A stretch of 64,000 nt of DNA from a bacterium (lineage in GTDB: Bacteria > Bacteroidota > Ignavibacteria > SZUA-365), in assembly GCA_020444325.1 (NCBI GenBank), contig JAHLLD010000015.1, positions 62,001-126,000 on the forward strand. Direction: 5' to 3'. Position 1 is the first letter of the stretch; each line of letters opens with the position of its first letter. Positions 26,726 through 45,501 of this stretch are shown one piece after another. The notes under the pieces were generated by a model that was given only the letters and a program-made list of their open reading frames with translations, had not been told where the DNA came from and made no database searches. A program made the translations under genes and the position numbers.

Positions 26726-29700
26726 ATGCGCCTGTCACGAGTTTCCGGAATGCGTTTCCTGTATGCGATTCTGTTCGTTTCAGTTGTCATTCTCGGCGTG
26801 AGTACGTCGTTACATGCGCAGACCGCCGAAGTGGAGATTCACCGTGTCATCGTGAACTGGCCCGATGTGGAGATGTATTACACTGCGCGCTGTGCCGGCG
26901 TGAATCAGTACAACATCCAGCCATCGCAGATCACCGTGACCGACAGCGGACGCACGGTGAACATCCTTTCCATGAGCTGTCCCGGACTCCCCACGCCATG
27001 TCCCATGTCCGTCGCCCTCGTCGGCGATGCCAGCGGTTCCATGGCTGGTGCAGGGAATACCGCACAGAAAAATGGCTTCAATATGTTTGTCGACTCCCTC
27101 CTGGGTGGAGACGAAGCGGCCGTGCTGTATTTCAATACGAATGTCGCCACTGCGCAGTCCATGACCGGTAACAGGACTTCCCTGCACAGCGCGATCAATG
27201 GCATTCCCGCCAGCGGGGGAACAGCGCTATGGGATGGATTCTATGCCGGCCTGCAGGAAGTCATTAATAACGGGACGGGAAGCTGCCGGTCGGTCATTGT
27301 TGTCACGGACGGAAGCGACAATAATTCCTTCTTCGCCCCACAGGATCTGATCATTCCCGCAAACCAGCACCACGTGCATCTCTGCGCGATCGGACTCGGC
27401 ACCGCGATCAACACGACAGAGCTCGAGATGATTACCAAGCTGACCGGCGGGAAACTGATCGTCATCAGTGACACCGCACAGTTCGCAGGTGCCATGATGG
27501 AAATACAGCATTTCATTCGGAATTACTATGAGGAATGCAGCATCACGTTGCAGACCGGGTGTCCCGACGGCAGCGTGCATAAACTTGATCTGGCCATCAC
27601 CGGTGTATGCGGCACGACGGTAAGGGATACCGCGGCATTTCGTGCGCCGCTGGATACGTCCGCCTGGGTGGACATGCAGATGCATCTGACCTCGCCGCAG
27701 ACTGCCGGTTATACGGAAGTGGACATGGAGCTTGTGCTCGATACCTGGTTGAATGGCGATTATTTCGAGCCTTTGGAGTTCTCCCTGAATTTCAATACGA
27801 CGGCTCTTGAACTCAGGGATGTTTTCCCCTCGCCGGGTTCGCTGCTGGGACCAGTCAATGTGCAGATTATACCGACAAGCAGCGGCGCCAATATCGCTGT
27901 CAGTGGTCCGACACAGATAACGGGTACCGGTCCACTCCTGAATTTCCGCTTCTACACGAAAATCCTTCCCAATGACACGATATGTGAACCTGTCACCATC
28001 ACCGATGCGAACTTCGATGCCGGGTGCTATCGTCTGCGGGAAACAAGTGGGGAGCTCTGCATACTGAAAGGACTGCCGGTCGTCTCCTGCGACATGACGG
28101 GGCAGGATAAGATGGTGTGGGACAAGGGGGCACAGGAATACGTGCCGAATCCCTTCGCCGTTTCGATGACGGTAGAGAATTCGGGCGATGCCGGGGCAAC
28201 GGGCATGCGCTTCCATCTACTGTATGATACGACGGACGTTGCGTTGGTCTCTCCTGCTGTAGATACGCTGCTTGCGAATCCTTCGGTGTTGCTTCCGGGA
28301 ACGCAGAGTATGGCGGTATGGCAACTGCGGGCGAAGACGCGCTTTACCAGCGACAGCATTACGCTGCGCATGGTGGCCGAATTCGACAATGCACCACCTG
28401 TGACATGCGAACACCGTGTGTTCGTACCGGCGTCTCCACTGACGCTGCAGTGCTGGATCGACTTGCCCGTGATTACCGCGGACAATGCCAATAACCGCTA
28501 TTCGCCGATGCCTTTCCCGGTAACACTGACTGTAACGAATGTCGGGGGGGCGAAGACGGATTCGGTGTTTGCCACGATTATTGTTCCACCAAACCTGAAG
28601 CTGGCCGGAGCTGATGCGCCGGACAACAATACCAAGCGAGTTCTCCCGTCCATTCTTCTCCCACAGCAGAGCGGAAGTATACAGTGGATGGTTGAGCACC
28701 CGCTTACCAACCAGGCAAGGCAGTACCAGGTGACGGTGTGGGTGAAGACGGCGAATGGCGATTCTTCCCGGTGTACGGCTTTGATTACGATACCGGCTAT
28801 AGATATACCGTTGCTCTCGCCAAGATGCTATGTGCCGGACTCCCTGCATTTCGATCCGGCGCTCAATATGTATACGCCGAATCCGTTCACGGTTCGGCTC
28901 ACCTGTGTCAACAACGGGGAGACCACTGCAAAGAACGTTGTGGGTAAACTTGTCCTGCCACCGGATGTGGAACTTGTCAATCCGGCGGAACCGCTGACGA
29001 AAATGTTCAATCCGTCTACGCTCCCGAAACTGAAGATCGGTGATCCCATCCCGGAACTCTCCTGGGATGTCAGGTTCACGAAGCGCGCACACACCAGGAT
29101 CTGCCCCGAGTTCAGGTTCGTCGTCACTGGAGAGAATTTCTCCGGAGTGGCTCTCGACTCTGTGGATGTGACCTGCTGCGTTCCTGTTCCACCGGTATTG
29201 CCCTCGTGGGCATGCGACCTGGATTTGCCGGATTCACTCGGAGTTAGTGTGACAGGCATGGATGTTGTGCCGAATCCTTTCTATATCCGCTACACGATCA
29301 CAAATTCCGGACAGGAAGCTGGTGTCATCAAGCGCGTAAAACTGTACATGTCGGCGCAGGATGGACTCTCACTTGATCCGGCCTCAATCATGCCGCTGGA
29401 TACAAATGTGAACGTCACGGTCGGACCAAATTCCACCGCTTCCTTCGAGTGGGCTGTGCGCGTGCAGAACCGGGACAGCCGCCGAAATCTGAAGTTTGGC
29501 GTGACCGCCTGGGATGACAAGGATGATCCCATCATGTGCGAGGACTACCTTCCCATCGCAGCGGTGGAGCGCAGCATCACCTGCACAGGAATAAGTGTCG
29601 ATCAGTCTGAGCTTTGCGCTGAGGGAGGAAGCGTAATGGTTACGGCCGTGTTGCGAAATGAAGGGGCCGTGAATGTCAATGACGTGACGGCTCTCCTCGA

Positions 29701-30661
29701 GTGGACAGATGTCGGAGGGACGCAGTACCTGGAATTCGACCCGTCTTTTGGGGACAATGATAATCCGAAACAGTGGGGTGTCCTCTTCCCGCAGCAGAGC
29801 CGGCAATTTCGGTGGGGTCTGCGCATGAGCAGGATGAATACGGGACCGACCCCGCTGACCGTGCAGCTCACACTGCGTTATGGTGCCGCGTCCATCCCGA
29901 CGACAGGAGGTGATTCGCTGTGTACGGCTACCGTCACAATCCTGCCCCTGCAGTCCGCCCCGATCATCGTTCTCGGAAACAATCCAGCCTGCGACGGTGA
30001 TACTGTGGTACTCGATGCCGGGAACGGCTATGCGAGCTATAGGTGGAGTACGCAGGACACCTCGCGGCAGCTTGTCGTGACGCAGAGCGGTTCCTATCAT
30101 GTGCGTCGTGTCATGGGCACGGAACCGTACTGCATGGTGCTGAGCGATACCGTTCAGATGACGTTCCATCCAAAGCCGGATGTCCCTGTCATCACACGCA
30201 ACGGCAACACGCTGAGCTCCACCGCGGCTGCTACCTACCAGTGGGTGCGCAACGGGGGTGCCATTCCACTGGCAACCTCGCAGGATTACACGGCGACAGC
30301 AAATGGAGTGTACTTCGTGATTGTGACGAACGGCTTCGGCTGCACGGCATTGTCCGACACCCTGCGCGTGACACTTGTCAGTGTGGATGAACCGCTGGCC
30401 GGGAAGTTCACCGTTGATGTGTACCCGAATCCATCCCATGACGTCTTCACCCTCTCATGCACAGCAGGGAGCAGGCAGCACCTGCGACTGACGGTGCGGG
30501 ATATTCTCGGCCGCGTCGTACTGGAACAGTCCATCGAACATAATGGTGTGTATACGCTGCAGCGGGTGGACCTTTCCGCGTTGCCGGATGGAATCTTTTA
30601 TCTCCGACTGGAGAATGCAACAGTGCAGCACACCCGCGTGCTTCTGCTGCAGCGCGAATAA
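26726..30661 (+). CDS. VWA-domain surface protein with T9SS sorting domain, paralogue 3 (1311 aa)
   Basis: The longest of the three VWA paralogues. Signal peptide (1 to about 31, LHAQT), family block (HRVIVNWPDVEMYY), VWA domain (about 94-275), then more CARDB-like beta domains than the sister proteins (repeated 'YxPNPFxV' phrases such as YTPNPFTVRLTCVNNG). Ig-like domains (NPACDGDTVVLDAGNGYASY) and a T9SS sorting domain (VYPNPSHDV, then DILGR) follow. The MIDAS residues are complete: DASGS, the Thr in SGGTALWDG and TDGSDNNS. GGAG lies 9 bases before the chosen ATG; an in-frame ATG at 26750 is a weaker alternative. The upstream leader carries two terminator-like hairpins. A strong terminator ends the unit. 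It probably binds a surface or matrix partner; the ligand is unknown. Confidence 0.87.
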   Translation: MRLSRVSGMRFLYAILFVSVVILGVSTSLHAQTAEVEIHRVIVNWPDVEMYYTARCAGVNQYNIQPSQITVTDSGRTVNILSMSCPGLPTPCPMSVALVGDASGSMAGAGNTAQKNGFNMFVDSLLGGDEAAVLYFNTNVATAQSMTGNRTSLHSAINGIPASGGTALWDGFYAGLQEVINNGTGSCRSVIVVTDGSDNNSFFAPQDLIIPANQHHVHLCAIGLGTAINTTELEMITKLTGGKLIVISDTAQFAGAMMEIQHFIRNYYEECSITLQTGCPDGSVHKLDLAITGVCGTTVRDTAAFRAPLDTSAWVDMQMHLTSPQTAGYTEVDMELVLDTWLNGDYFEPLEFSLNFNTTALELRDVFPSPGSLLGPVNVQIIPTSSGANIAVSGPTQITGTGPLLNFRFYTKILPNDTICEPVTITDANFDAGCYRLRETSGELCILKGLPVVSCDMTGQDKMVWDKGAQEYVPNPFAVSMTVENSGDAGATGMRFHLLYDTTDVALVSPAVDTLLANPSVLLPGTQSMAVWQLRAKTRFTSDSITLRMVAEFDNAPPVTCEHRVFVPASPLTLQCWIDLPVITADNANNRYSPMPFPVTLTVTNVGGAKTDSVFATIIVPPNLKLAGADAPDNNTKRVLPSILLPQQSGSIQWMVEHPLTNQARQYQVTVWVKTANGDSSRCTALITIPAIDIPLLSPRCYVPDSLHFDPALNMYTPNPFTVRLTCVNNGETTAKNVVGKLVLPPDVELVNPAEPLTKMFNPSTLPKLKIGDPIPELSWDVRFTKRAHTRICPEFRFVVTGENFSGVALDSVDVTCCVPVPPVLPSWACDLDLPDSLGVSVTGMDVVPNPFYIRYTITNSGQEAGVIKRVKLYMSAQDGLSLDPASIMPLDTNVNVTVGPNSTASFEWAVRVQNRDSRRNLKFGVTAWDDKDDPIMCEDYLPIAAVERSITCTGISVDQSELCAEGGSVMVTAVLRNEGAVNVNDVTALLEWTDVGGTQYLEFDPSFGDNDNPKQWGVLFPQQSRQFRWGLRMSRMNTGPTPLTVQLTLRYGAASIPTTGGDSLCTATVTILPLQSAPIIVLGNNPACDGDTVVLDAGNGYASYRWSTQDTSRQLVVTQSGSYHVRRVMGTEPYCMVLSDTVQMTFHPKPDVPVITRNGNTLSSTAAATYQWVRNGGAIPLATSQDYTATANGVYFVIVTNGFGCTALSDTLRVTLVSVDEPLAGKFTVDVYPNPSHDVFTLSCTAGSRQHLRLTVRDILGRVVLEQSIEHNGVYTLQRVDLSALPDGIFYLRLENATVQHTRVLLLQRE

Positions 30662-30766: not shown

Positions 30767-30858
30767 CGGAACATCGATGCGGCTGACATTGTATGCGATG
30801 AACCCTATATTACGGGTCGTTACCTGTATTCTGTACGCAATACGAGATGAGGTCGTTC

Positions 30859-31728
30859 ATGCCGCATCGCATCGGGTTAAGTCTCCTCAGTGGAGGCAGT
30901 TGCACTGCACTTCTCCTGCTCATCGCATTCCTGTCCCAACCAGTACTTGCTCAGCAGGGGGACGAGGATGAAGGTCCACCGTATTATGACAAAGTGGTTC
31001 GCCTCAAAGACGGGACCGTGATCCGGAACGTTGAGGTTACCTGGGAACAGGAAGAGGGAGAGTATGAGCGCTATGTGATCAAATCCCGCAATGGGGAAAT
31101 CGTTCGCAAGCTCCCTTCCGAAATCCTGGTTATCGAAACACATTCGCGCACATTTCTTCCGCCGGGGTACAATCCTGTCGGTATCGTCACTCCCTGCGAC
31201 GACCGTCAGCGGGAAAAGCTGCCATACTTCCTCGAGCTGCGGGCCTTCGGATATCTGACCGGAGAGGATGAGTCCGACAGCCAGATCGGTATCAACAGCT
31301 TTGTGTTCGGACCAGAAGTTGCCGGTGGGTTTCGCTTCGGGGCGTTTGGTATCGGACTCGGTGCTGCGTGGTTTTCGTCGCGCGACATCAACCGTTTTCC
31401 TTTCTTCATCCATGCGCGCTATCAGCTTGCGATGACATGCTTCGCACCCTTCCTTTTTGCCCAGGCCGGGACGGTGTTTGATGATCAGAGCGGGGAGACC
31501 CTGGGTTTCGACAATCTGCTGGAAGCTGCTCCCAAACTCTTTTCCATCGGAGCGGGCATTGACTATCCGCTTTCTCCATCGCTGGATATTTCCTTCGATC
31601 TCGGGTACCGTTACATGCAGCTGCCCACCGCGGTGCTCTGTGACTGTTCGGACATCCCCGAACGCGCGGAAGCGATCTACTATAATGAAAGCCACGGACT
31701 GTTGCTCCGTCTCGGCGTGACATTCTAA
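30859..31728 (+). CDS. Outer-membrane beta-barrel protein, first gene of a three-gene operon (289 aa)
   Basis: Signal peptide (about 1-32, QPVLAQ), then a small SH3-like beta domain (about 40-95: VVRLKDGTVIRNVEVTWEQ ... LPSEILVIE) of a kind common before Bacteroidota barrels. A transmembrane beta-barrel follows (about 115-289) with alternating aromatic strands and a terminal Phe (LLLRLGVTF), the usual outer-membrane insertion signal. I prefer the ATG at 30859 because GAGG lies 6 bases upstream; an in-frame ATG at 30847 would add four residues. Fourteen bases separate it from the next gene. In the known T9SS, PorP/SprF barrels pair with PorE-type lipoproteins. The PorE-like gene two places downstream makes a comparable role possible, but I see no specific PorP signature. 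Confidence 0.75.
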   Translation: MPHRIGLSLLSGGSCTALLLLIAFLSQPVLAQQGDEDEGPPYYDKVVRLKDGTVIRNVEVTWEQEEGEYERYVIKSRNGEIVRKLPSEILVIETHSRTFLPPGYNPVGIVTPCDDRQREKLPYFLELRAFGYLTGEDESDSQIGINSFVFGPEVAGGFRFGAFGIGLGAAWFSSRDINRFPFFIHARYQLAMTCFAPFLFAQAGTVFDDQSGETLGFDNLLEAAPKLFSIGAGIDYPLSPSLDISFDLGYRYMQLPTAVLCDCSDIPERAEAIYYNESHGLLLRLGVTF

Positions 31729-31742
31729 GCAGGAGACAGGAC

Positions 31743-33686
31743 ATGAATTTGCGCACACATACAATGATACTACGCACCACCGCTCTCGTATTCACGGCTG
31801 TCCTGCTGCTTTCCTGCCAGTCACCGATGGAGCGTCCGCCGACCGAAGCACGCGATGTGGTCGTCCATGTGCAGACTGCGACAGGGCGTCCCATCGAACT
31901 CGTTCCCGTCGAAGTGTACGATCTCGCTGTGCCGCAGGAGCAGCGCGAAGCGCTTGATCGGGAAATGACGGATCAGGCCGGAAACAGCTATTTTCGCTTC
32001 GTGATCCCGACAACGGGAGGACGCTACCGCTTCGTGGTGGGGAATGAACAAACCGGCGTAACGACGCTCGATGCAAACCTGCTCTGCCGTGACACGCTCA
32101 TGATCGTGGAGCTCGTTTCAGAGGAACTCCCCTGCAGCGGTACGATCGATCGCACGTTACGCATCGACGACGTCTGCGCCCCCCTGAGTACCGGGGAGAT
32201 GTTTACCGACAGTGCCGAAGTCATATTCCGCAACGGCTGTGACGTACCGATGACATACACATTGAGCGGACCGGGAGACTCTCCGGCGCATGCGCTTTTC
32301 ATTCTCGATGCGGACGGGAATATCATCACGGACCGGCCATTCACGGTGGATGCGATGGGGCAGATGACCTTGCGCGCCGTGGCCACGCCCGAAGACAGCA
32401 GCCTCCAGGTCCTGCGCTATACGCTCAGCGGTATGGGGCCGAATCAGGCAGCGGTGACCATTAACCTGACAGTGGAAATCGAAGCGCGCAACTGCAACTT
32501 CTGTACCTGTCCCGAAGATGAAATCATCATCGATTTCGGCAGCATACAGGCCGAGCCCGAAGCGGATCGCGGGGAATCCGCTGAAGTGGTTTCCATGCCC
32601 AGGAACAGCTGCCTGTATGACCGCATCGACGATCTGATCAAGCAAGCCACGCAGAATGACGTGTTCAGCGTCACTGCGCTGGAGAATCTGACTGTCCCAA
32701 CCGGATCCCGCAGTTCGGTCACGGTAACCTTCCGTCCGAAAGAACAGCGCAGCTACCGCGACACCCTTCTGATCGAGCACTTCCTGCCGGAGGAACAGCG
32801 GCGTTGCACGACACGGGTTATTCTCCAGGGCGAGGGCTGTGGTCCCGCCTGCGAACTTGTGGAAGATCCCAGGTTGGTCGAGAGCGCGACTGCCCGCTAC
32901 GATTTCGACATGGGCCGCGTGCGTGTATACGAAGGAGGCCGTGATCAGATTTGCTTCATGAATGTGGGGGATTGCGGTGTGCTGGAACTGGAGCAGGACT
33001 ACGTGGAAACCCCCGGATTTACCGTCACCCCTTCGGCGCTTTCCATAGACGGCGGCGAAACGGGCTGCTTCAGTATTGTATTCGATGCGTCGGACGAAGT
33101 GGTCTGGCCGGATGGACACGGACAGCCGGCGAAAACACTGCATGAGATGCCGATGCTGGTGCGGGGCTGCGGTCCCAGGCGCGATATTACCGTGCATGTC
33201 ATCGTCGATACGCTCCCCATCCTGTTTTCCCGTTGCATCTATCAGTGGGATCAGAACGGCAATTACGGGTACAACTTTACTCCTGTGGGCGGCAAGGGTG
33301 AGGACCGCTACGATCCGGATGCCCTGCTGGCACAGATTACCGATCTCGTTGTCATTTCCGCGCGTGCGGGCAATGATGCCGAGGTGCGCATACGCAGCGG
33401 CTGGAAACATATCAAGGATGGTGTCTCCGAGGCACAGTTCAATTACACCGACATGTCAACGGCAAGTAACGGATGGAGTATGGCGGAGTTTCGCTCCATC
33501 ACCTCGGATCCATTTGATCCGGGACCGGCGGCCACGCTCGATTTTCGCTCCGTGTATTCCATCCGCATCGAACGCAACGGTGTCATCAGCTACGCCTGTG
33601 TGCGTGTGCGCGAAATCAGCATGGATCCCGATGGGAAATTCAAGCTCTGCCTCGACGTCCTGTACCCGATGATCAAGGAGAACTGA
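31743..33686 (+). CDS. Lipoprotein with Hydin/SPD-2-like beta domains (647 aa)
   Basis: The N-terminus has a lipoprotein signal with lipobox LLSC (Cys about residue 25), so the protein should be lipid-anchored in the outer membrane. Residues about 38-110 look like a carboxypeptidase-regulatory-like or transthyretin-like domain (VHVQTATGRPIELVPVEVY, FRFVIPTTGGRYRFVV). Residues about 140-480 hold two or three beta-sandwich domains of the ASPM/SPD-2/Hydin kind (IDFGSIQ, VTVTFRPKEQ, FSIVFDAS). The rest (about 480-647, RCIYQWDQNGNYGYNF onward) is unrecognised. AGGAGA precedes the ATG. It lies 14 bp after the barrel gene and 3 bp before the PorE-like gene, which implies one mRNA and probably one envelope complex. 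No enzymatic motif is visible. Confidence 0.75.
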   Translation: MNLRTHTMILRTTALVFTAVLLLSCQSPMERPPTEARDVVVHVQTATGRPIELVPVEVYDLAVPQEQREALDREMTDQAGNSYFRFVIPTTGGRYRFVVGNEQTGVTTLDANLLCRDTLMIVELVSEELPCSGTIDRTLRIDDVCAPLSTGEMFTDSAEVIFRNGCDVPMTYTLSGPGDSPAHALFILDADGNIITDRPFTVDAMGQMTLRAVATPEDSSLQVLRYTLSGMGPNQAAVTINLTVEIEARNCNFCTCPEDEIIIDFGSIQAEPEADRGESAEVVSMPRNSCLYDRIDDLIKQATQNDVFSVTALENLTVPTGSRSSVTVTFRPKEQRSYRDTLLIEHFLPEEQRRCTTRVILQGEGCGPACELVEDPRLVESATARYDFDMGRVRVYEGGRDQICFMNVGDCGVLELEQDYVETPGFTVTPSALSIDGGETGCFSIVFDASDEVVWPDGHGQPAKTLHEMPMLVRGCGPRRDITVHVIVDTLPILFSRCIYQWDQNGNYGYNFTPVGGKGEDRYDPDALLAQITDLVVISARAGNDAEVRIRSGWKHIKDGVSEAQFNYTDMSTASNGWSMAEFRSITSDPFDPGPAATLDFRSVYSIRIERNGVISYACVRVREISMDPDGKFKLCLDVLYPMIKEN

Positions 33687-33689
33687 GAT

Positions 33690-35582
33690 ATGAAAACAGT
33701 ATGCTCTTTCGCTGCGCTTCTTTCCTTGATGCTGCTCTCCGGATGCGGTGGCAGTGATTCGGTGGTGCAGCAGAATCGGAATTCCACGCCCCGAGGGAAT
33801 CTTCCCGTGTACAATTGCAGCGTGCTCAACAGTGCGGCAGACGAATTCGCTCCAGTCGTCGCGAGTACGACGCGCGTGTTTTTTACCTCGAATCGACGAC
33901 AGGAGGGCAGTAATACCTTCCTCTCCCCGGAGTACCGCTACGGTGAGGCCGTGTATGTCGTTGAGCGGAATACTGATGATAAGGTACTGCAGCTCGATAA
34001 AACAGCAGAGTGGACACGACCACTGATATTCCGCCCCGAGGTATTCGGAAAGGTCAATACCGGAACGCTGGCGATGGATGGCAAGGATGAGATGTACCTC
34101 AGCAGTGCTTCGTATATCCCGGATGCGGAAGGCGGAGCCGACCTGTTCCGCGTCTCGTCGGTTGCCGGTGCAATGAGTGCGCCACAGGCACTCGATAGGG
34201 TGAATTCTCCATGGTGGGACGCCCAGCCTGCAGTTTCCCCTGACGGGAGTCTCCTCATCTTCGCCTCCGACCGTGTGGCTGCGCAACCTTCCGTCGATGA
34301 CCAGGGAAACCGTCAGCCGCAGCTCTGGCTCAGCACGAGGCAGGAGGATGGAAGCTGGGGTGCCCCGGAACTACTCCCCGCGCCGATTAACAGCGGAAAA
34401 GGGGAGATGTCGCCACATTTCGATGCGAACGGCATGCTCTACTTCGCAACGCTGCGCTGGCCCGAGCAGGGTTTCGATATCGTGAGCAGCTCGAGAAACA
34501 TGAATGGGACCTGGAGTGAACCCGTGCGGCTTGCTCCTCCTGTGAACAGCGATGGGAATGACGTCTTTCCGTATGTGACGCCGGATCGACTGCAACTGCT
34601 GCTCGCATCCGATCGTCCCGGAGGCGCAGGGGGATATGACATCTGGGCGGCGGAAGTGCCTTACTGTATCAATGTCATCGCGGATGTGACGCTTCTCGAG
34701 CCTGACAACGACAACACGACGTCTTCTCGTCCCGGTGTCCAGGTCGCAATGAAAGTCATTGATGTGGAAAGTGGCAGCACCGTTCTCGAGGGACGGACAG
34801 ACACGGAGGGACGTTTTGCGCCGGAGACCTGTCTGCGCGCGGGACGCAAGTACATCCTGCGCCCTGGCAACGAAGCATGTTTCCAGGCCTCAGAGCCCGT
34901 TGCCTTTACCACCCCGGTTCCTGACGCAAGCACCGCTATGGTGCCGCTCACGGTCGAACTGCGACGTCCGATGCTTCCGGAGTTCGAGGTGCTCACCGAT
35001 ACCATCCCGTTTTTCGTCACCGGTTACTGGTATCCGAATACCTCGACGGAACTTCAACGTCTTCGTGAACGCATGCGCGATGAGGAACTGCCGAATGCCA
35101 ATTTCATCGATCTCAAGGACTATGATTACAGCTTTGCCGCCCAGCGCGTCGATCGCTGGTTTTCCCATCTTTACAGTGAAATCGAAAACATGATCGTGCC
35201 CATGCTCGACACCTGCTACACCGGTGTCGACACCCTGGTGATTTCCGTGTTGGGACATGTTGATCCGAGAGGACTCGCGTGGGGACGTTTCGATGAAGAT
35301 GAAACCGTGCAGACGCAAACCATGACGGTGGCGCCGGGAACGGTCATGCAGAAGCAGGACGGAAACGTCAAGCTTTCACACCTCCGCGCATATTACACCA
35401 TGCGCATGATCGACAGCGAAATGCGCAAGCGCTCCGACCGTTACGCGCTGTTGCGGGATCAGCGCCGCATCCGCATTCTTGCGGAAGGTGCCTATATCGC
35501 AGAAGACGCCGGTCGTGACATTAATGACCCTTACCAGAGAAAGTTCATCGTCAACGTCGAGGTCCGCCACGGCCATCATTGA
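33690..35582 (+). CDS. PorE-like lipoprotein: PD40 propeller, regulatory-like domain, OmpA-like end (630 aa)
   Basis: Lipobox LSGC (Cys about residue 20) gives a lipid anchor. Residues about 45-325 form a PD40/WD40-like propeller (AVSPDGSLLIFASDR, SPHFDANGMLYFATLR, LLLASDRPGGAGGYDIW). Residues about 335-420 are a regulatory-like beta domain (VIDVESGSTVLEGRTDTEGR). Residues about 430-630 resemble the OmpA peptidoglycan-binding domain: VISVLGHVDPRG matches the GHTD motif and KLSHLRAYYTMRMI matches LSxxRA, keeping the Asp and Arg that hold diaminopimelate in that family. This order is that of PorE of the T9SS, which also has an N-terminal TPR that is absent here. It would tie an outer-membrane complex to the cell wall. 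AAGGAG precedes the ATG. It is the third gene of the operon. Confidence 0.72.
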   Translation: MKTVCSFAALLSLMLLSGCGGSDSVVQQNRNSTPRGNLPVYNCSVLNSAADEFAPVVASTTRVFFTSNRRQEGSNTFLSPEYRYGEAVYVVERNTDDKVLQLDKTAEWTRPLIFRPEVFGKVNTGTLAMDGKDEMYLSSASYIPDAEGGADLFRVSSVAGAMSAPQALDRVNSPWWDAQPAVSPDGSLLIFASDRVAAQPSVDDQGNRQPQLWLSTRQEDGSWGAPELLPAPINSGKGEMSPHFDANGMLYFATLRWPEQGFDIVSSSRNMNGTWSEPVRLAPPVNSDGNDVFPYVTPDRLQLLLASDRPGGAGGYDIWAAEVPYCINVIADVTLLEPDNDNTTSSRPGVQVAMKVIDVESGSTVLEGRTDTEGRFAPETCLRAGRKYILRPGNEACFQASEPVAFTTPVPDASTAMVPLTVELRRPMLPEFEVLTDTIPFFVTGYWYPNTSTELQRLRERMRDEELPNANFIDLKDYDYSFAAQRVDRWFSHLYSEIENMIVPMLDTCYTGVDTLVISVLGHVDPRGLAWGRFDEDETVQTQTMTVAPGTVMQKQDGNVKLSHLRAYYTMRMIDSEMRKRSDRYALLRDQRRIRILAEGAYIAEDAGRDINDPYQRKFIVNVEVRHGHH

Positions 35583-35617: not shown

Positions 35618-36595
35618 TTATTCGAAATCTTCAAGGAAACGGCCGAACTGCGATGCAAAGGCATGCAGGTCTTCATCCATGATGATGCGGACCACGATGG
35701 TTTCGCGAGGACCGATGGACACCGGCATGGGCCTGTCGTGATCCCAGTAAACCTTGCGGCCTGAATTCGCTTCCCAGGTGAGGTGCACCCTGTATTCGCG
35801 CTCATTACGCAGTTTTACGGTGTAATGCGTCCCCGGCTTCATGTCGTTGAGGGTAATCGTGGTGCTGTCTGCTACCGCACCGTAGAGTGGAATGAGGCGG
35901 GAGGTGAACTGCGTGCCACGCTCCATCGGAAGATGGAGCTTGCTGTCGGCCGTGCTGTGGGAGAGCACACTGTATTGCACGAGCTGTTTGAATTCCGTGT
36001 TGATGTTCGCACGCATTCTGTTTGAACGTGTCGAGATCTGCAGATAATTTCCCTGCAGCTTGTCACCAGCGCTTTTTGTGCCTTCCACAAAACTGATATT
36101 GTGGAACGCAAAATCAGCTGATACGCCCGTCCCCGTCCTGCGCTGCATCTTGTAGCTGACCCTTCTCGTCCCGCGCCGCTTTCCCAGTGAGAGACTGTCG
36201 CGCACGTCGAGATTCAGTTCGAAAAGCGAACCACCACCCTGTCCATACCCCCACTCATACTGCCACCAGTAACCCGGCTGATCAGGCTGCAGCCTGCCCA
36301 TGGGATTCCATCCGAGCAGCACGGCCTCGTTCGCGCGGTCCCGCGTCGGCCCCGCATGCTTGACGGCGTATGAGTGCAGTGCAAAAATCCCGCGGCCATT
36401 CTCCGCGGCGCCTTTCCATCGCAGCGTAGGCGGCATGGGCAGGAGCTGCAGAGGGGAGTACCCTTCGTACGTACCGACACTGTCGGCAGGGTGGAAATAC
36501 AGGTTGTCATCCTGTGCGTGGAGGGAGGAAGTGTACAGGAGGATAGCAAGCGCGAACATCAGCTTCATCGCGGGCCTCGACAATTGGGTGGACAT
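35618..36595 (-). CDS. Secreted protein of unknown function (325 aa)
   Basis: A signal peptide is visible (MKLMFALAILLYTSSLHAQ after nine extra residues). GGGAG five bases before the ATG at 36595 supports the longer start. The mature part is beta-rich and polar, with no cysteines, no sorting domain and no family I recognise. Recurrent short motifs such as GYWWQYEWGYGQGGGSLFEL and THYTVKLRNEREYRVHLTWE suggest a soluble periplasmic or secreted beta protein; the C-terminus (FGRFLEDFE) does not look like a barrel strand. It is convergent with the PorE-like gene, with only 35 bp between stops and no terminator between. The function is unknown. Confidence 0.7.
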   Translation of the reverse strand: MSTQLSRPAMKLMFALAILLYTSSLHAQDDNLYFHPADSVGTYEGYSPLQLLPMPPTLRWKGAAENGRGIFALHSYAVKHAGPTRDRANEAVLLGWNPMGRLQPDQPGYWWQYEWGYGQGGGSLFELNLDVRDSLSLGKRRGTRRVSYKMQRRTGTGVSADFAFHNISFVEGTKSAGDKLQGNYLQISTRSNRMRANINTEFKQLVQYSVLSHSTADSKLHLPMERGTQFTSRLIPLYGAVADSTTITLNDMKPGTHYTVKLRNEREYRVHLTWEANSGRKVYWDHDRPMPVSIGPRETIVVRIIMDEDLHAFASQFGRFLEDFE

Positions 36596-39305: not shown

Positions 39306-42300
39306 TTACTCCACAAGCAGTCCATTCATCACGAACCAGAGTATGGTCGCGGGACGCGTTCCGGTCATGCGTTCCCATGCCGTCGCATACGCGGAAATCT
39401 GTGAGCGGTAGGCGGCGACGCGCGGGTCCTCCATGGTCTCCACCAGGTCTGTTTTGTAGTCGACGATCGTCCAGCCTGTCTCGTCCTCGAAGACGGCATC
39501 CATTACGCCGCTCATCACTGCCGGCATTGCATCGGCATCCTCTTCCCACGCGGTTCCGAAGGGCAGTTCAGTATACCATCGACGAGCATTTTGCATTCGC
39601 TGCCACAGCGGATGTGCGGATACCCGTGTCGAGAGATCGCGTAATTGCACTTCCATCGCGGCATCAAGTCCTTCATCGCTGGCAATGCGCGCACAGATGT
39701 CCTGCAGACGCTTTTCGGCAGAATCGCCATCAATCTCTTTCTCATCGTGCAGGGCCTGCTGCTGTAGGGCCAATTCAAACAAGCGGTGTGCTGCGGTGCC
39801 GAAGCGCGCGCCATGTCCGTGCTCTGAGGAAGCAGAAACAGGCGTAGCGGCATGCAAAGTAAGACGGCTGGGACTCAGTAGTTCATATCCTTCTGCAGCA
39901 GCGTCATGAAGGCGCGTTTCTATCTTTTCTCGTGCTGAGGCATCGAAAGGCACGGCAGGGTCAGCTGGAGGGCCGATGCGATCCTGCTGTCCGACGGGAC
40001 CGAAGGAGGGCGCCGCCGGGAGGTCAGTTTGCAGGAGAGTACTCCAGGTTTCTTTATGCACATTCTGCATATTCGCGTTGTGCGCGATAATCAGGGCATT
40101 CTCGGCGCGTGTCGCTGCAACGTACTGCAGCCGCATGCGCTCCGCTTCCAGAAATCGCTGTTCTTCCTCGTACTGGCGATCCCACAATTCAGAGACAGCC
40201 ACCTGGGGGCCGTTGTACTCACCCTGCTTCGCGTGAATGCGCATGCTGCCTGTCGGGGGAGCAGTGCTGCGATCGACGCAGAGCCGCTCCCTGTCCTTTC
40301 TCTGCCGGCTGCGATGCTGCGCGAGGATGACTATGGGAGCCTCGAGTCCCTTTGCCTTGTGCACGTTCATGATGCGGAGTGCATGGGTATCGGGGAACAG
40401 CGGCATTCCGTCGACCGGACTCTGTCGCGTTGCCGCATCGAGATTCCCGACGATTTCCGCGAGGGAAAACCCACGTGCTGAATAGTGCTGGACGAACTCC
40501 ATGAGTCGCTGCAGCGTGCCGGCGCGCATGTTGCCTCCTGCATCAGTAGATGTCCACGCGAGCAGTCCCAGTTCTTCAAGCACACTGCCTACTACCGCGG
40601 CCGGTGGAAGGGAACGAAGCAGACGGACCTTGCCCTTGATGAAGGCGAGTCCGTCGAGAATACGTGCATCGGCATCCTTGACCACGGAAGAGAAAAAGGT
40701 GAAGCGTCCCCCTTGGTCACGATACGCCGTCAGTGCGGCATCATCCACGCCGCAATAGGGTCCGCGAAGAAAGGCGACGACTGAGATTTCGTCCAGCGGG
40801 TCCGCGAGCGCATGCAGAATCTGCATAATCGGTCGCAGGGTCACGCGATCACGGAGCGCAAAGCCTCCTGCAATCGTCACGGGAATCCCTGCGCGCTCCA
40901 TCGCGTCCGCGAATGCCGTGATTCCGGCATTTTCAGGTGTCAGCAGAAGGATATCCTCGGGGCGCAGCGCCCGAAGTTCTTCCTCTCCATCACCTGTTCG
41001 CACCTGGATTTTCATGCCCGATCGCAGCGCGTCCGCGGTCCACGACGCCAGCGCCTCCGTTTCCTCGAGGAGGCATTGCTCCGGTTTCCGCCTGTCACTG
41101 CACTGCAAAGGAAATGCGTAAACCCCGGTAAATCCTCCCAGATTGGCACGCACGGGCGTGAGGGGAGCCGCCGCCGCCTGATAGGGTGTGGCTTCCTCCG
41201 GAAAGATTTCGCTGAACCGCGTGTTCACCCAGTCTGTGATGGCCGGCAGACTGCGGAAGCTGTTGTCGAGACGTAGCCGCTGCTCGCCGCCGCGTTCAAT
41301 GATGTTCGCGACGACGTTGTATATGCTGATGTCCGCCTGGCGGAAGCGGTATATCGACTGACGGGGATCGCCGACCACAAACAATGAACCCGCGCGTGGA
41401 CACAGCTTTCTCCATGCGTTCTCGCTGACATCCTCGCCGGTCAGGTAGAGCATGATTTCTGCCTGTGCCGGATCCGTATCCTGAAATTCGTCGACGAGCA
41501 GATGGGTGTAGCGCTGCTGCAGATCCTCACGCACGGAGGGATGCTCGCGCAGCATGTCACGCGTGCGCAGCAGCAAATCATCATGCGTCAGCGCGCCCCG
41601 TGATTGGAGCTCCTCGCGAAACAGGGCCGCGAGGGGACGCGCATGCTCGATTAGAAGGGGATAGCAATACTGCTTCCAGGCGGAATATGCAGAAACTGCA
41701 TAATTCTGCAGGAAATCTTCCAGCAATGGTGCGACGGTGTGCTTTCCATCGAGTCCGATTTCATCCCAGCGTTTCTGCGTCAGCAGGGAATCTTTCATAA
41801 ATGGTGCGAGTACACGGGCGATGTCCCCCGCGGAGGTCAGAGAGGACAGCTCAACGAGGCGCAAGCTGCGGAGTATACCCTGCAGCGCATCTTCCTTCGG
41901 ACGCACATCGGGAGGAATTGCGGGAGCGAGGATTTCATACAGCTCGATGAGCCTGTCGCGAGCGGGTCGAAGATCCGGTTCGGCGCGCCGCTCTGCCGGG
42001 AACTCCGTATCAGGATGTTCACACAGCAGTGCATACGTTTCCTGCAGTGCGGAGAGCGGGAGCTGCAGACTGCGGAGCATTTCTTTTGCTGCAGTGCTCC
42101 CGGACCGATCCTTTCGCATCGCCAGGAAAAAGATGCGCTGCTGCAGCGCGGCTGCCTCCTGATCATCGATAATGTGGAAGTCCGGATCCACGCCCGCCTC
42201 AAGGGGACGCTCACGCAGCAGCTGTGCGCAGAATGCGTGGATGGTGCCGATGAAGGGACGATCAATATCATGCAATGCATCGACAATGCGCTGACGTTCG

Positions 42301-42566
42301 TTGGGAGGCAGATCCGGCTCGCTGAGAGCGGATTGCAGCGACACCTCAAACTTCTGCCGGAGATGCCCCGCAGCTTTCACGGTGAAGGTCATCGCCGCAA
42401 GGTGTTCGATGCGGACAAGTCCCTGTCGCAGCAGCGCGGTCATGCGCATGACAAGGCTCGTCGTCTTGCCTGTACCCGCCGCGGCTTCGACGAGAATGCA
42501 GTGGCCGGTGTCGTTCACAATGCGCTGCCGGGCATCCTGATCTGTAAGTTTCAGCCTCTCAGACAT
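39306..42566 (-). CDS. addA: AddA-type UvrD-family helicase/nuclease (1086 aa)
   Basis: The motor subunit of an AddAB/RecBCD-like helicase-nuclease, which processes DNA double-strand ends for recombination in the cytoplasm. Superfamily 1A motifs appear in order: Walker A (AAAGTGKTTS, about 29-38), motif II (LLVDEFQDTD, about 358-368), motif III (VVGDPRQSIYRFRQADI), motif IV (LDNSFRS), motif V (VHKAKGLEAP) and motif VI (AATRAENAL). The C-terminus has a RecB-type nuclease: GTAAHRLFEL, then a conserved Asp in MDAVFEDE and DYKTD (about 1033). The start at 42566 follows GGAGGAG; another ATG at 42587 is upstream of that site. It overlaps the end of addB by 8 bp, so translation is likely coupled. 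Three copies of the iterated palindrome lie inside this gene. Confidence 0.88.
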   Translation of the reverse strand: MSERLKLTDQDARQRIVNDTGHCILVEAAAGTGKTTSLVMRMTALLRQGLVRIEHLAAMTFTVKAAGHLRQKFEVSLQSALSEPDLPPNERQRIVDALHDIDRPFIGTIHAFCAQLLRERPLEAGVDPDFHIIDDQEAAALQQRIFFLAMRKDRSGSTAAKEMLRSLQLPLSALQETYALLCEHPDTEFPAERRAEPDLRPARDRLIELYEILAPAIPPDVRPKEDALQGILRSLRLVELSSLTSAGDIARVLAPFMKDSLLTQKRWDEIGLDGKHTVAPLLEDFLQNYAVSAYSAWKQYCYPLLIEHARPLAALFREELQSRGALTHDDLLLRTRDMLREHPSVREDLQQRYTHLLVDEFQDTDPAQAEIMLYLTGEDVSENAWRKLCPRAGSLFVVGDPRQSIYRFRQADISIYNVVANIIERGGEQRLRLDNSFRSLPAITDWVNTRFSEIFPEEATPYQAAAAPLTPVRANLGGFTGVYAFPLQCSDRRKPEQCLLEETEALASWTADALRSGMKIQVRTGDGEEELRALRPEDILLLTPENAGITAFADAMERAGIPVTIAGGFALRDRVTLRPIMQILHALADPLDEISVVAFLRGPYCGVDDAALTAYRDQGGRFTFFSSVVKDADARILDGLAFIKGKVRLLRSLPPAAVVGSVLEELGLLAWTSTDAGGNMRAGTLQRLMEFVQHYSARGFSLAEIVGNLDAATRQSPVDGMPLFPDTHALRIMNVHKAKGLEAPIVILAQHRSRQRKDRERLCVDRSTAPPTGSMRIHAKQGEYNGPQVAVSELWDRQYEEEQRFLEAERMRLQYVAATRAENALIIAHNANMQNVHKETWSTLLQTDLPAAPSFGPVGQQDRIGPPADPAVPFDASAREKIETRLHDAAAEGYELLSPSRLTLHAATPVSASSEHGHGARFGTAAHRLFELALQQQALHDEKEIDGDSAEKRLQDICARIASDEGLDAAMEVQLRDLSTRVSAHPLWQRMQNARRWYTELPFGTAWEEDADAMPAVMSGVMDAVFEDETGWTIVDYKTDLVETMEDPRVAAYRSQISAYATAWERMTGTRPATILWFVMNGLLVE
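40055..40071. promoter_or_regulatory. Iterated palindrome, near copy inside addA
   Basis: On the minus strand it reads TATGCAGAATGTGCATA, one base off the exact core. It lies within the addA coding region. Confidence 0.4.
40811..40827. promoter_or_regulatory. Iterated palindrome, exact copy inside addA
   Basis: The core ATGCAGAATCTGCAT is at 40812-40826, with 6-bp perfect arms. It lies inside the addA coding region. Confidence 0.5.
41686..41702. promoter_or_regulatory. Iterated palindrome, exact copy inside addA
   Basis: TATGCAG-AAA-CTGCATA, identical over all 17 bases to the copy in front of the XRE gene (15841-15857). It lies inside the addA coding region. Confidence 0.55.
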
Positions 42567-45501
42567 TTCGCAGACTCCTCCATGCATCCAGCATGCGGTT
42601 GCCTGCGTTCTCCAGTTTCTGTCTCGACTGGATATTCACGCTGTCGTCACTTCCACACAACTCTGCAAAATCGCAGTGCCTGCATTCGTCCTTCTCCGGT
42701 GTATGCGGGTATATGCCCTGTGTGATGCATTCGCGAATATGTCCGAGTGCGACGGGTAATTCCGCACTTGCATCCGGCATGCGCAGACGAAGCCCACCTT
42801 CATTTTCTCCCAGGAACACATATTCCGCGGCGACCACGTCCCTGTGCTGCGCGAAAAAAGTCCGCACCGCCTCGACATACAGCGCATGCTGCAGATGTTT
42901 GCCTCCACCGAGTCCGACGGAAGCATCAAAATGACGCTTCCCGGTTTTGTAATCCCTGACGAGAAGGCTGCTGTCTGCTTCACTGTCTACACGGTCTATC
43001 CCGCCGCTGACCTGCAACGTGCCGCCGGGGACCGCGATCTCCAGTGGTGGAAGGGGCTCTCGTTCGCCCCGGTTGTGCCCGAAGTTCTGTTCCAGCGCGA
43101 GAGGGGTGCCGGGTTCTGCGCATTCGAGTCTGAAGAAACGCTCACAGAGATCCTGCACCCGCGCTGCGCCCTCGCTGCGGTGCAGAGCCGAAGGAGCCGG
43201 AACGCGCTCCGCCGTGTCTGTGAGAACCGCTGTCAGGATCTGCTGCAGCAGGGGAAGGTGTGCGGGACGAACCGGAAAATCGTTTTTCGCCCGAACGGCA
43301 TCCATGAAACGTTCGAGGATGGTGTGTACCGCACTCCCGAGCTGCGCCGCGTCGAGCCATTCAGCAGCATCACGATCCCAGGGATCGGGTGGGGACAGAT
43401 GCAGTATCGTTGAAAGAAAGAAACGATAGGGGCATTTGGCAAAGGCTTCGAGGCGTGAGGCGGAAAGCGGCGAGGGCAGCGCATGCTGCACTCCTTCAGC
43501 GGCAACGCTGCCATCGTATGCCGTGAATGTATCGCCTGCCCGTGCGGCTTCTGCATCGCTGCCACGTGCGAGCAACGGCAAGGCCTCGCGCATCCGGTGG
43601 CGAAGTACCTCCGCCTCATCGGTGATGCTGCGCTGCAGCCAGTACTCGGCCAGGCTGAGAGCATTCTGCAGGGGAGCTGCCGAGAGCGGGGCGCCCGCTG
43701 CGCGTTCGAGGTCGTCGTATCCCAGCTGTGGATCGCCTTGCTCTCTGCGCAGCAGATCAAGCAGCAGGTGTGAAGGAAAACGCACGCTCCCATCCTGCGC
43801 ATCGCGTTCGCTCCACGAGACATGCAGCTGTCCGGTAATCCTGCTCACAAGAGCATGAAAAGCGGCAGTATCGTGTTCCGCCTTTTCGGATGCGAGAGGG
43901 AGGTGGCTTCCGGTCGCAAGATTGATGGCTCGGCGATCGCTGTCGAGGAGCACGGGGTTTTGTGCGGACGGCGAGGGCAGCGTCGCTGCGTCCGCTCCGA
44001 GCAGCAGTGTGCATGGGCGTCCGCTGTATCCTCCACGTCCCGCAGTGCTGACATGCAGGTGTCCGGGACGCGGCGTCGTGACCAGCAGCGGTTCTGCACC
44101 CGGCTCCTGCAGTACGAGGGGATAGGTGATGCTGCGGATATCCGCGATGACGCGTGCACTCAGCTCCGCCACAGGAGAATGCTCATCCTCACCCTCGAGA
44201 TAATCCGTCAGCAGGCGAAGGAGTTCAGCGAGCGCCTGTTGTTCACCGGGATACTTGTCACGCGACATGTCCGTGACCAGGATACGTGTTGCCTCTGCAA
44301 GGGCATGCAGGCCAACGCGGTTCTCGACATCGGGATGGGGTGTTACTTCGAGCAGCCGTGCGATCCAGGCCCGGTCAGCAAGAAACTCCCTGCGCTTTTT
44401 AAGGTCACGGGCACTGATCTTTTCATCAGTCCCGCGTCGTGCGATCAACGCATCAATGCGAGGGAGGTATCTGTCCCGTCCCCAGCCGATCGCCGCCTCG
44501 CGCAGCAGTGCGGCTGTCGACAGTCTTCCCCCGCGGACTCCCTCGTGTTTCCATTCCGAAAAATCAGGGACGCCATCATACATCATTCGTATGAGATGGG
44601 AGGCGGCGAAATCCGAGCTGATCCATCGCAGGTATGCCGTGACCGTGCGCGCCGCTTTGCTGTAATGGAGGGGGATGCCCGGATCGAACGTGCAGGGGAT
44701 GTCGAGCTGGCGGGACAATTCGTAGGCGAGTGGCAGCAGATCGCCACGCATGAGAACGATCTCCGCATCTTCCCAGCGCAGCTCGCTGTCGAGCACGGTG
44801 CGGAAGGCTGCGCGGACCTCCCATTCCGGCCTCTCTGCGCGATGAACGTGCAGGGTGGACCTGGCATCGCGGGCCTCAATTTCATGGAGGTCGCCTGCGG
44901 CTTCGAGCAACTCGCGTGCTACCGCCGGGAGCCTGTTGAGTAACGATGGTTCGACAAGAAGGATGCGTGTTGATGTACTCTCACGTGCGGCGGCGAGAGC
45001 AGCGCGCAGAAGCATGCTGCGCGTGCTGCGATTTCGCTGCGCGCAGAGTTTGGCAAAGGTCACATGGATGGCGACAAACACGCGTCCCCGCTCGCTGTCG
45101 CCGAAAGCAGTGGCAGCGAGTGTGGCAGGATCGAGTCCGGCCAATTCACAATCCTCAATCCCCTGAAGCAGAGCACGGTGGAAGCCCCGGTTGCTGCGTA
45201 GTGCGGCGAATGCCGAGTCCTCAGGAATGGCTCCCTCACATGCATGCCGCATGAGGCGTTCGGACTGTCCGGGTGTCAGGAGTCCCGTGACAACAGCATC
45301 TTCATCCCCAAGGATATGCCTGGCAAAACCGTCGACGGAACGGGCATGCAGGTTCAGCCACGGCGTCCCGTCGCGGGCACAGCGCTCGCGCAGCTGTCTC
45401 CCCGATGAGGAGGCTGATGTGATGATGATTTTCTCATCAAACAGATGGTCACGGCAAACCGCGGCTATGTCCCGCTTCATATGCTGATTCTTTATGCGCA
45501 T
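42559..45501 (-). CDS. addB: AddB-type nuclease with iron-sulphur cysteine pattern (980 aa)
   Basis: The partner of the helicase downstream. The N-terminal part looks like the inactive helicase-like fold of AddB proteins (IIITSASSSGRQLRERC, VDGFARHIL); no Walker A is present, unlike Firmicute AddB. The C-terminal third is a PD-(D/E)XK nuclease: SASRLEAFAKCPYRFFLST (about 680-700), then GGIDRVDS and VRDYKTGKRH (about 850). The cysteine in AKCPYRF plus the three in DECRHCDFAELCG (about 938-950) form the usual four-Cys 4Fe-4S staple of AddB-like nucleases. The start is uncertain: ATG at 45501 or at 45480 (MKRDIAAV), and neither has a clear ribosome-binding site. A near copy of the iterated palindrome overlaps the start region. 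It ends 8 bp inside addA. Confidence 0.83.
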   Translation of the reverse strand: MRIKNQHMKRDIAAVCRDHLFDEKIIITSASSSGRQLRERCARDGTPWLNLHARSVDGFARHILGDEDAVVTGLLTPGQSERLMRHACEGAIPEDSAFAALRSNRGFHRALLQGIEDCELAGLDPATLAATAFGDSERGRVFVAIHVTFAKLCAQRNRSTRSMLLRAALAAARESTSTRILLVEPSLLNRLPAVARELLEAAGDLHEIEARDARSTLHVHRAERPEWEVRAAFRTVLDSELRWEDAEIVLMRGDLLPLAYELSRQLDIPCTFDPGIPLHYSKAARTVTAYLRWISSDFAASHLIRMMYDGVPDFSEWKHEGVRGGRLSTAALLREAAIGWGRDRYLPRIDALIARRGTDEKISARDLKKRREFLADRAWIARLLEVTPHPDVENRVGLHALAEATRILVTDMSRDKYPGEQQALAELLRLLTDYLEGEDEHSPVAELSARVIADIRSITYPLVLQEPGAEPLLVTTPRPGHLHVSTAGRGGYSGRPCTLLLGADAATLPSPSAQNPVLLDSDRRAINLATGSHLPLASEKAEHDTAAFHALVSRITGQLHVSWSERDAQDGSVRFPSHLLLDLLRREQGDPQLGYDDLERAAGAPLSAAPLQNALSLAEYWLQRSITDEAEVLRHRMREALPLLARGSDAEAARAGDTFTAYDGSVAAEGVQHALPSPLSASRLEAFAKCPYRFFLSTILHLSPPDPWDRDAAEWLDAAQLGSAVHTILERFMDAVRAKNDFPVRPAHLPLLQQILTAVLTDTAERVPAPSALHRSEGAARVQDLCERFFRLECAEPGTPLALEQNFGHNRGEREPLPPLEIAVPGGTLQVSGGIDRVDSEADSSLLVRDYKTGKRHFDASVGLGGGKHLQHALYVEAVRTFFAQHRDVVAAEYVFLGENEGGLRLRMPDASAELPVALGHIRECITQGIYPHTPEKDECRHCDFAELCGSDDSVNIQSRQKLENAGNRMLDAWRSLRNV

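Follow-up and report, generated by a model that had tools for sequence, protein, structure and literature searches.

A conserved three-gene unit of the Ignavibacteria

The window analysed here, a 64,000-nucleotide stretch of contig JAHLLD010000015.1 (positions 62,001 to 126,000) that is part of a 4.65 Mb genome of the class Ignavibacteria (Bacteroidota; SZUA-365), carries three consecutive plus-strand genes, A, B, and C, which encode an outer-membrane barrel, a lipoprotein, and a second lipoprotein with a PD40 propeller and an OmpA-like end. Comparison across genomes shows that this trio is a genuine unit of ordered genes, recorded to date in this class alone. We propose that the three genes, inherited together, encode an anchor between the outer membrane and peptidoglycan whose client is exchangeable; it would be an analogue of the assembly of PorE, PorP, and type-B cargo of the type IX secretion system (T9SS) but a separate system, a reading for which we see about even chances. 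A first-pass annotation of the same DNA had reported an operon with gaps of 14 bp between A and B and 3 bp between B and C, and the open reading frame (ORF) calls in the window confirm it at that place.

Among 61 genomes, A was matched in 17 and B in 14, and C-like PD40 proteins were found in 39. Within the taxonomic order of the window, the three genes are adjacent as A-B-C in G000, G001, G002, G003, G005 (two copies), G006, G008, G009, and G010. In G012 the contig stops after 88 codons of C, A and C are both cut by contig ends in G014, and the G013 trio is split over two contigs; at contig ends, B-C is left in G007 and C alone in G004. Neither A nor B was matched in G011 and G015. Elsewhere in the class, divergent trios are present in G020, G027, G033, G045, and G060, which belong to other families; G042 has A-B at a contig end and G054 a short middle gene, which hhalign joined to no B set. 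Comparing the order's set with the divergent sets, hhalign gave 99.0-99.6 percent for A, 98.1 and 99.8 percent for B, and 99.8-100 percent for C, against at most 52 percent in cross-family controls, the highest of which paired B with ASH-domain cargo. Across these trios, A proteins are 22-29 percent identical and B proteins 16-21 percent.

We also ran the B profile over 395 genomes of the phylum, scoring up to three candidates per genome. At E 0.001 it matched 73 of them, with long, high-scoring matches only in the class (G000, G020, G033, G252, G233, G378, G366, G203, and G287, and more weakly G153); outside the class no match exceeded 32 bits, and the top one covered a single part of the profile. 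All eight of the B-profile loci that we fetched, G039 among them on the strength of a C-terminal match to the B profile only, carry A and C as recognised by models built without them. Seven have the order A-B-C and one (G378) has C-A-B, with a called ORF of 186 aa between C and A. That order and orientation are kept over such divergent sequences is more than chance would give. One related locus, from an uncultured Ignavibacteria bacterium, encodes a C protein with 73 percent identity. A plasmid search returned two partial matches only, and in a search of open-licence PMC literature we recognised no paper describing the trio. As a separate observation, one of the two G005 copies, L065 (G005:C40), is a divergent second trio flanked by T9SS cargo genes to either side.

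The wall-binding end of C

A functional clue lies at the C-terminus of C. According to an excerpt of PMC7192894, PorE binds the peptidoglycan stem peptide via Asp576, Asn584, and Arg591. These residues map to Asp525, Asn559, and Arg566 of C, and this triad is invariant in 12 of 12 rows of one alignment and in all 30 rows of a wider domain alignment; a scripted count gave 32/32, 31/31, and 31/31 for the three positions, one domain being cut at a contig end. The triad positions also align when the end of C is compared by hhalign with canonical OmpA ends. Asp and Asn are 34 positions apart in C versus 8 in PorE, which corresponds to a 26-residue insertion, and the six canonical OmpA paralogues of the same genome score close to zero with a model of this variant OmpA-like (vOmpA) domain. 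With up to seven candidates scored per genome, we found vOmpA in 30 of the 395 phylum genomes, all of them of the class. One further vOmpA match, in a 24,401-codon "open frame" of another genome, was rejected because the frame is a stretch of masked bases.

PD40 (50.5 bits) is the only Pfam match of C. The structure model (mean predicted local distance difference test score, pLDDT, 80.6) comprises the propeller, a beta sandwich, and an end whose strands and helices succeed one another as in OmpA. TolB heads the Foldseek list and GH43-type propellers head the VIA-align list; propellers fill both lists, so the fold comparison speaks for the propeller part of C. A search of the C profile against solved structures gave no match at E 0.1. 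Of the architecture assigned to C at first pass, the propeller is clear; the carboxypeptidase-regulatory-like domain stays below the Pfam cut-off of 32.3 bits in relatives (20.2 and 20.4 bits) and appears as the beta sandwich in the model; and the OmpA-like end is a variant to which PF00691 is blind.

Many divergent class members have a C protein without lipobox, and B retains its cysteine there. In such members C would need A or B to reach the membrane, and the loss of the lipobox in C beside a B that keeps its cysteine would agree with partners holding C at the membrane. In a few C proteins (L124, L065, and L075) a SPOR match follows vOmpA, with 22.6 bits in one of them, over the cut-off of 21, and 20.9 and 15.2 bits in others; these possibly combine two wall-binding domains in one protein. 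A form of C bearing tetratricopeptide repeats (TPR) occurs elsewhere in the class (L083).

The barrel and the middle lipoprotein

For A, the claim of an outer-membrane barrel is supported by a weak Pfam match to OMP_b-brl (14.5 bits, cut-off 28.7) but by an eight-stranded barrel in the model (mean pLDDT 74.2), which is preceded by a five-stranded N-terminal domain; that this domain is SH3/LSm-like is a guess. The best fold matches among solved structures are eight-stranded barrels such as NspA, OmpW, and OmpA, with Z 13.0-14.8 over 116-151 residues and 10-17 percent identity in the eight best rows. A has this barrel fold in common with them and differs by the additional N-terminal domain and by conserved cysteines. 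The sequence profile of A gave chance-level rows only against solved structures (NspA, 0.42; the putative lipoprotein 2k57, 0.86).

In B, the Pfam matches to Cep192_D3, ASH, and HYDIN all fall at one place, around residues 299-365 (best 30.5 bits, cut-off 27), and the B profile matches a HYDIN chain (9ijj) with E 1.6e-8. The lipobox Cys25 is present without exception in an alignment of 11 close relatives and conserved in at least 90 percent of a wider alignment of 18 rows. A strict lipobox pattern fits 15 of 29 B proteins; two of the misses are fragments, and most of the others have an atypical lipobox (e.g., Trp at -2). B had been described as a lipoprotein of several Hydin-like domains: the lipoprotein part stands, and one clear Hydin-like domain remains of the rest. 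Nor is B an extra partner added to a PorE/PorP pair, as it is just as constant as A and C. A subtype of the trio (L076, L158, L161, and L162) carries a short lipoprotein of 277-297 aa between A and C; by eye its end resembles that of the long B, and hhalign does not join the two.

Tests of the trio against PorE and PorP

The first-pass annotation gave C the domain order of PorE without the TPR, noted that PorE works with PorP-type barrels in other species, and had named beforehand two results that would speak against a variant anchoring complex: a failure of C to match PorE better than generic PD40/OmpA proteins, and the lack of a genomic link to T9SS cargo. The first of the two is what we found. 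Among NCBIfam models, C scored 98.4 bits for CHU_0125 (NF053607, cut-off 620) and 94.5 bits for PorE (NF052230, cut-off 600), and six of the six PD40/OmpA paralogues scanned in the genome scored higher than C for PorE (136-284 bits). Scoring at most 16 candidates in each of the 61 genomes, we saw no PorE over cut-off; the best score in the genome of the window is 280.9. C has no TPR match in Pfam, and its modelled propeller starts near residue 40. By these tests, we rejected the identification of C as PorE.

A was likewise rejected as PorP. An excerpt of PMC9143113 defines PorP/SprF as a 14-stranded FadL-type barrel; A has eight predicted strands, and the PorP/SprF profile PF11751 has no match in the genome, the same search being positive in 27 of the 61 genomes (22 over cut-off).

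The trio also has features in common with these systems. C shares with PorE the PD40/WD40-like propeller and the Asp-Asn-Arg peptidoglycan triad. Both PorE-PorP-PG1035 and a set of Flavobacterium johnsoniae operons likewise combine a barrel and a propeller/OmpA-like peptidoglycan-binding protein with a third protein, of Ig type or at the surface; in F. johnsoniae the three genes lie together. The differences are that A is eight-stranded without a PorP match, that C lacks the TPR and has an insertion in its OmpA-like domain, and that B is a lipoprotein without T9SS signal; compared with a type-B cargo/PorP/PorE operon, the trio has a lipoprotein where the cargo would be. None of A, B, and C matches the T9SS sorting-domain model TIGR04183.

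A sister operon with a cargo-like protein

Six loci of the class carry a sister operon in the order VWA/ASH cargo-like protein, OMP_b-brl_2 barrel, PD40/vOmpA protein; those of L144 and L145 were found independently via the domain search. The barrel belongs to a family other than that of A (OMP_b-brl_2 over cut-off in L078, L135, and L145, below it in L077, L084, and L144). VWA and HYDIN/ASH matches were seen in the long protein of every one of the six loci, and four of these proteins exceed the TIGR04183 cut-off (L077, 23.6 bits; L078, 28.7; L144, 25.1; L145, 27.0). L084 reaches 13.7 bits, and L135 has no TIGR04183 match; there our local model and another T9SS-cargo model mark the same end. 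According to an excerpt of PMC12618676, five F. johnsoniae operons encode a PorE homologue, a type-B substrate, and an SprF-like protein, for which the same anchoring logic is proposed; an excerpt of PMC9143113 reports this logic for PorE-PorP-PG1035. The sister operon is similar to the F. johnsoniae operons. In an independent sample of 21 vOmpA genes in 20 loci, A lies two genes upstream of six (with B recognised in two and another middle gene in four), and a barrel and cargo lie beside two.

T9SS cargo genes around the trio

The operon does sit among T9SS cargo genes, as first described: eight of the 25 called genes in the window bear a sorting domain by our local model, over a cargo-rich span of 2054-62736, and the upstream neighbour (26726-30661) matches Por_Secre_tail in Pfam at 42.1 bits and TIGR04183 at 33.7 bits in addition to VWA. 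Homologues of this neighbour were seen beside the trio only within the genus, and it is possible that the VWA protein is a client of the trio. Type-A sorting domains number at least 150 in the genome; in the other trio genomes (n = 21) the count is at least 150 in 16, 149 in one, and 50-60 in four. The type-B sorting domain PF13585 gave 17 matches in the genome, none over cut-off. Because window and genome are so rich in cargo genes, a cargo neighbour is not surprising on its own.

Neighbours over the TIGR04183 cut-off occur at seven of 18 genus-level trio loci: five of seven within the order (G000, both G005 copies, G012, and G013, the last counted across a called ORF) and two of 11 outside it (G033 and G153). 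Two further trios (L155 and L156) have no cargo neighbour. The local sorting-domain model gave 8/18; the G008 (L067) neighbour has only 13.0 bits for TIGR04183, and a downstream neighbour in L064 has 41 bits with the local model and no TIGR04183 match. At per-neighbour rates of 3.75 to 10 percent, P is 2e-4 to 0.04 for 7/18 and 0.001 to 0.11 for 6/18, the rates being rough as cargo counts are lower bounds, the genes are clustered, and some loci show one flank only. The excess of cargo neighbours is suggestive. The neighbours include VWA, tandem-95/TafC-like, F510_1955 glycosylhydrolase-like, and choice-of-anchor D proteins, a diversity that argues against one conserved partner. SprA was found in 60 of the 61 genomes and the trio in far fewer, which shows that possession of a T9SS does not require the trio.

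Feature coordinates and neighbouring genes

Coordinates are collected in Table 1. Gene A has an alternative open start at 30847, and a promoter-like site upstream of it (30783-30811) scores 10/12; the number of such sites is three versus 2.4 expected. Three genomes of the genus keep a gene of 321-325 aa, without a Pfam family over cut-off, close to the trio (L061, L062, and the window, at 35618-36595). Further downstream, at 39306-45501 on the minus strand, are two overlapping long genes, the first of which by eye resembles a UvrD/AddA-type helicase-nuclease.

Table 1. Positions of the trio, its domains and key residues, the upstream neighbour, and the sister operons (window coordinates unless a locus is named).
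Feature	Position	Strand	Description or basis
Gene A	30859..31728	+	signal peptide, N-terminal five-stranded domain, 8-stranded outer-membrane barrel
A residues 45-94, five-stranded N-terminal domain, probably periplasmic	30991..31140	+	model
A residues 123-289, 8-strand barrel, terminal Phe	31225..31725	+	model; NspA/OmpW/OmpA-like
Gene B	31743..33686	+	lipoprotein, ASH/HYDIN domain, many invariant cysteines
B lipobox Cys25 (...LLLSCQSP)	31815..31817	+	invariant in 11/11 alignment rows
B residues 300-349, ASH/HYDIN/Cep192 domain match	32640..32789	+	Pfam; HYDIN chain 9ijj
Gene C	33690..35582	+	lipoprotein: PD40 propeller, beta sandwich, variant OmpA-like domain
C lipobox Cys19 (...MLLSGC)	33744..33746	+	sequence
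C residues 40-322, PD40 beta-propeller	33807..34655	+	Pfam, model, fold match
C residues 326-425, carboxypeptidase-regulatory-like beta sandwich	34665..34964	+	model; sub-threshold Pfam in relatives
C vOmpA domain	35007..35576	+	alignments, profile comparison
C Asp525, putative diaminopimelate-binding triad	35262..35264	+	invariant (D86 of domain alignment)
C Asn559, putative diaminopimelate-binding triad	35364..35366	+	invariant (N120 of domain alignment)
C Arg566, putative diaminopimelate-binding triad	35385..35387	+	invariant (R127 of domain alignment)
Upstream neighbour, VWA protein with type-A T9SS sorting domain	26726..30661	+	Pfam, TIGR04183
Sister operon	L077:9162-14960		
Sister operon	L078:367-6045		
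Sister operon	L084:7392-12727		
Sister operon	L135:7489-13301		
Sister operon	L144:2279-7515		
Sister operon	L145:1851-7134		

Discussion

If the trio is an anchor, A, B, and C would form one complex in which the OmpA-like end of C holds peptidoglycan stem peptides and its propeller contacts A, B, or both from the periplasm. The Ig/ASH domains of B would be the displayed part, facing outwards, and the unit would attach B, possibly along with adjacent exported proteins, to an outer-membrane post that is bound to the wall. In the sister type, another barrel and a VWA/ASH protein, with a T9SS sorting domain over cut-off in four of six loci, stand in for B, which would make the post a general anchor with an exchangeable client. 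The invariant peptidoglycan triad and the sister operon lend support to the idea that the trio works like an anchor, not to C being a PorE variant. The first-pass proposal of a cargo-anchoring unit thus survives in its anchor-like working, with the cargo neighbours as a further point, and fails in the PorE and PorP identities. More tentatively, the class may have a wall-anchoring system of its own, one propeller post serving both lipoproteins (A-B-C) and T9SS cargo (VWA/ASH-barrel-C); the confinement of the vOmpA subfamily to the class, within the phylum sample described above, bears on this wider idea of two export routes.

Several results weigh against the anchor. PF00691 misses the OmpA-like end in C and in the trio relatives scanned, and hhalign relates this end to the canonical OmpA ends of the six paralogues at 73 percent only. 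The middle position is not uniform: the short lipoprotein has no detectable homology to the long B (hhalign 6.5 percent), and the middle gene of L149 is also unrelated to B (6.1 percent). Some subfamily pairs stay unjoined, namely A_II/A_III (47.6 percent), A_II/A_54 (8.8), A_III/A_54 (3.1), and B_II/B_III (12.9). Finally, 13 of the 21 vOmpA genes in the independent sample have neither partner set adjacent, so C-type proteins can occur alone.

The last point would be expected if the genes were co-transcribed and their products worked separately, C being one of many PD40/OmpA wall-binding proteins. We regard this as very improbable, as the trio stays together throughout the class at the low identities given above. 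A structural outer-membrane stabiliser similar to Pal or CHU_0125, in which C ties the membrane to the wall and A and B are membrane feet without any displayed protein, is a more serious alternative, if still rather unlikely. TolB, which heads the Foldseek list for the C propeller, works with Pal, an OmpA-like lipoprotein, and TolB-Pal resembles C in setting a propeller beside an OmpA-like wall-binding domain; in C both are on a single chain, which matches TolB families only marginally (13.2 and 10.8 bits). To judge by the CHU_0125 profile and the paralogue matches, CHU_0125/Pal-type lipoproteins have PD40, a regulatory-like domain, an OmpA-like end, and a lipid anchor as C does; CHU_0125 is the best NCBIfam score of C, and its deletion harms outer-membrane integrity according to an excerpt of PMC5891637. 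Yet C falls far below the cut-off of that family and is linked to two partners, a barrel and an ASH lipoprotein, and all six canonical PD40/OmpA paralogues scanned fit CHU_0125 better (170-328 bits). A stabiliser also leaves the large Ig/ASH lipoprotein and the sister operon unexplained.

It is less probable than the stabiliser that the trio is a T9SS accessory and a true PorP/PorE variant, with A shuttling the adjoining type-A cargo and C anchoring it. The cargo neighbours at 7/18 loci, the sister operon, and the F. johnsoniae parallel (PMC12618676, in excerpt) are in its favour. Against it stand the eight strands of A and its lack of a PF11751 match, the differing kinds of cargo neighbour and their absence beside L155 and L156, the abundance (at least 150 in most trio genomes) and clustering of cargo genes, and the occurrence of SprA in nearly all genomes without the trio following it; moreover, type-A cargo uses PorV according to the same excerpt (PMC12618676).

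Whichever role the trio has, its genes should not be named porE or porP, which corrects the annotation. Surface retention of proteins in T9SS bacteria is known from a few Bacteroidia. As a compact set of three genes, the trio is amenable to experiment. If the anchor reading is true, the Ignavibacteria would have a class-wide anchor that follows the same logic with another barrel and a variant wall-binding domain, which would suggest a repeated origin or a rebuilding of such posts.

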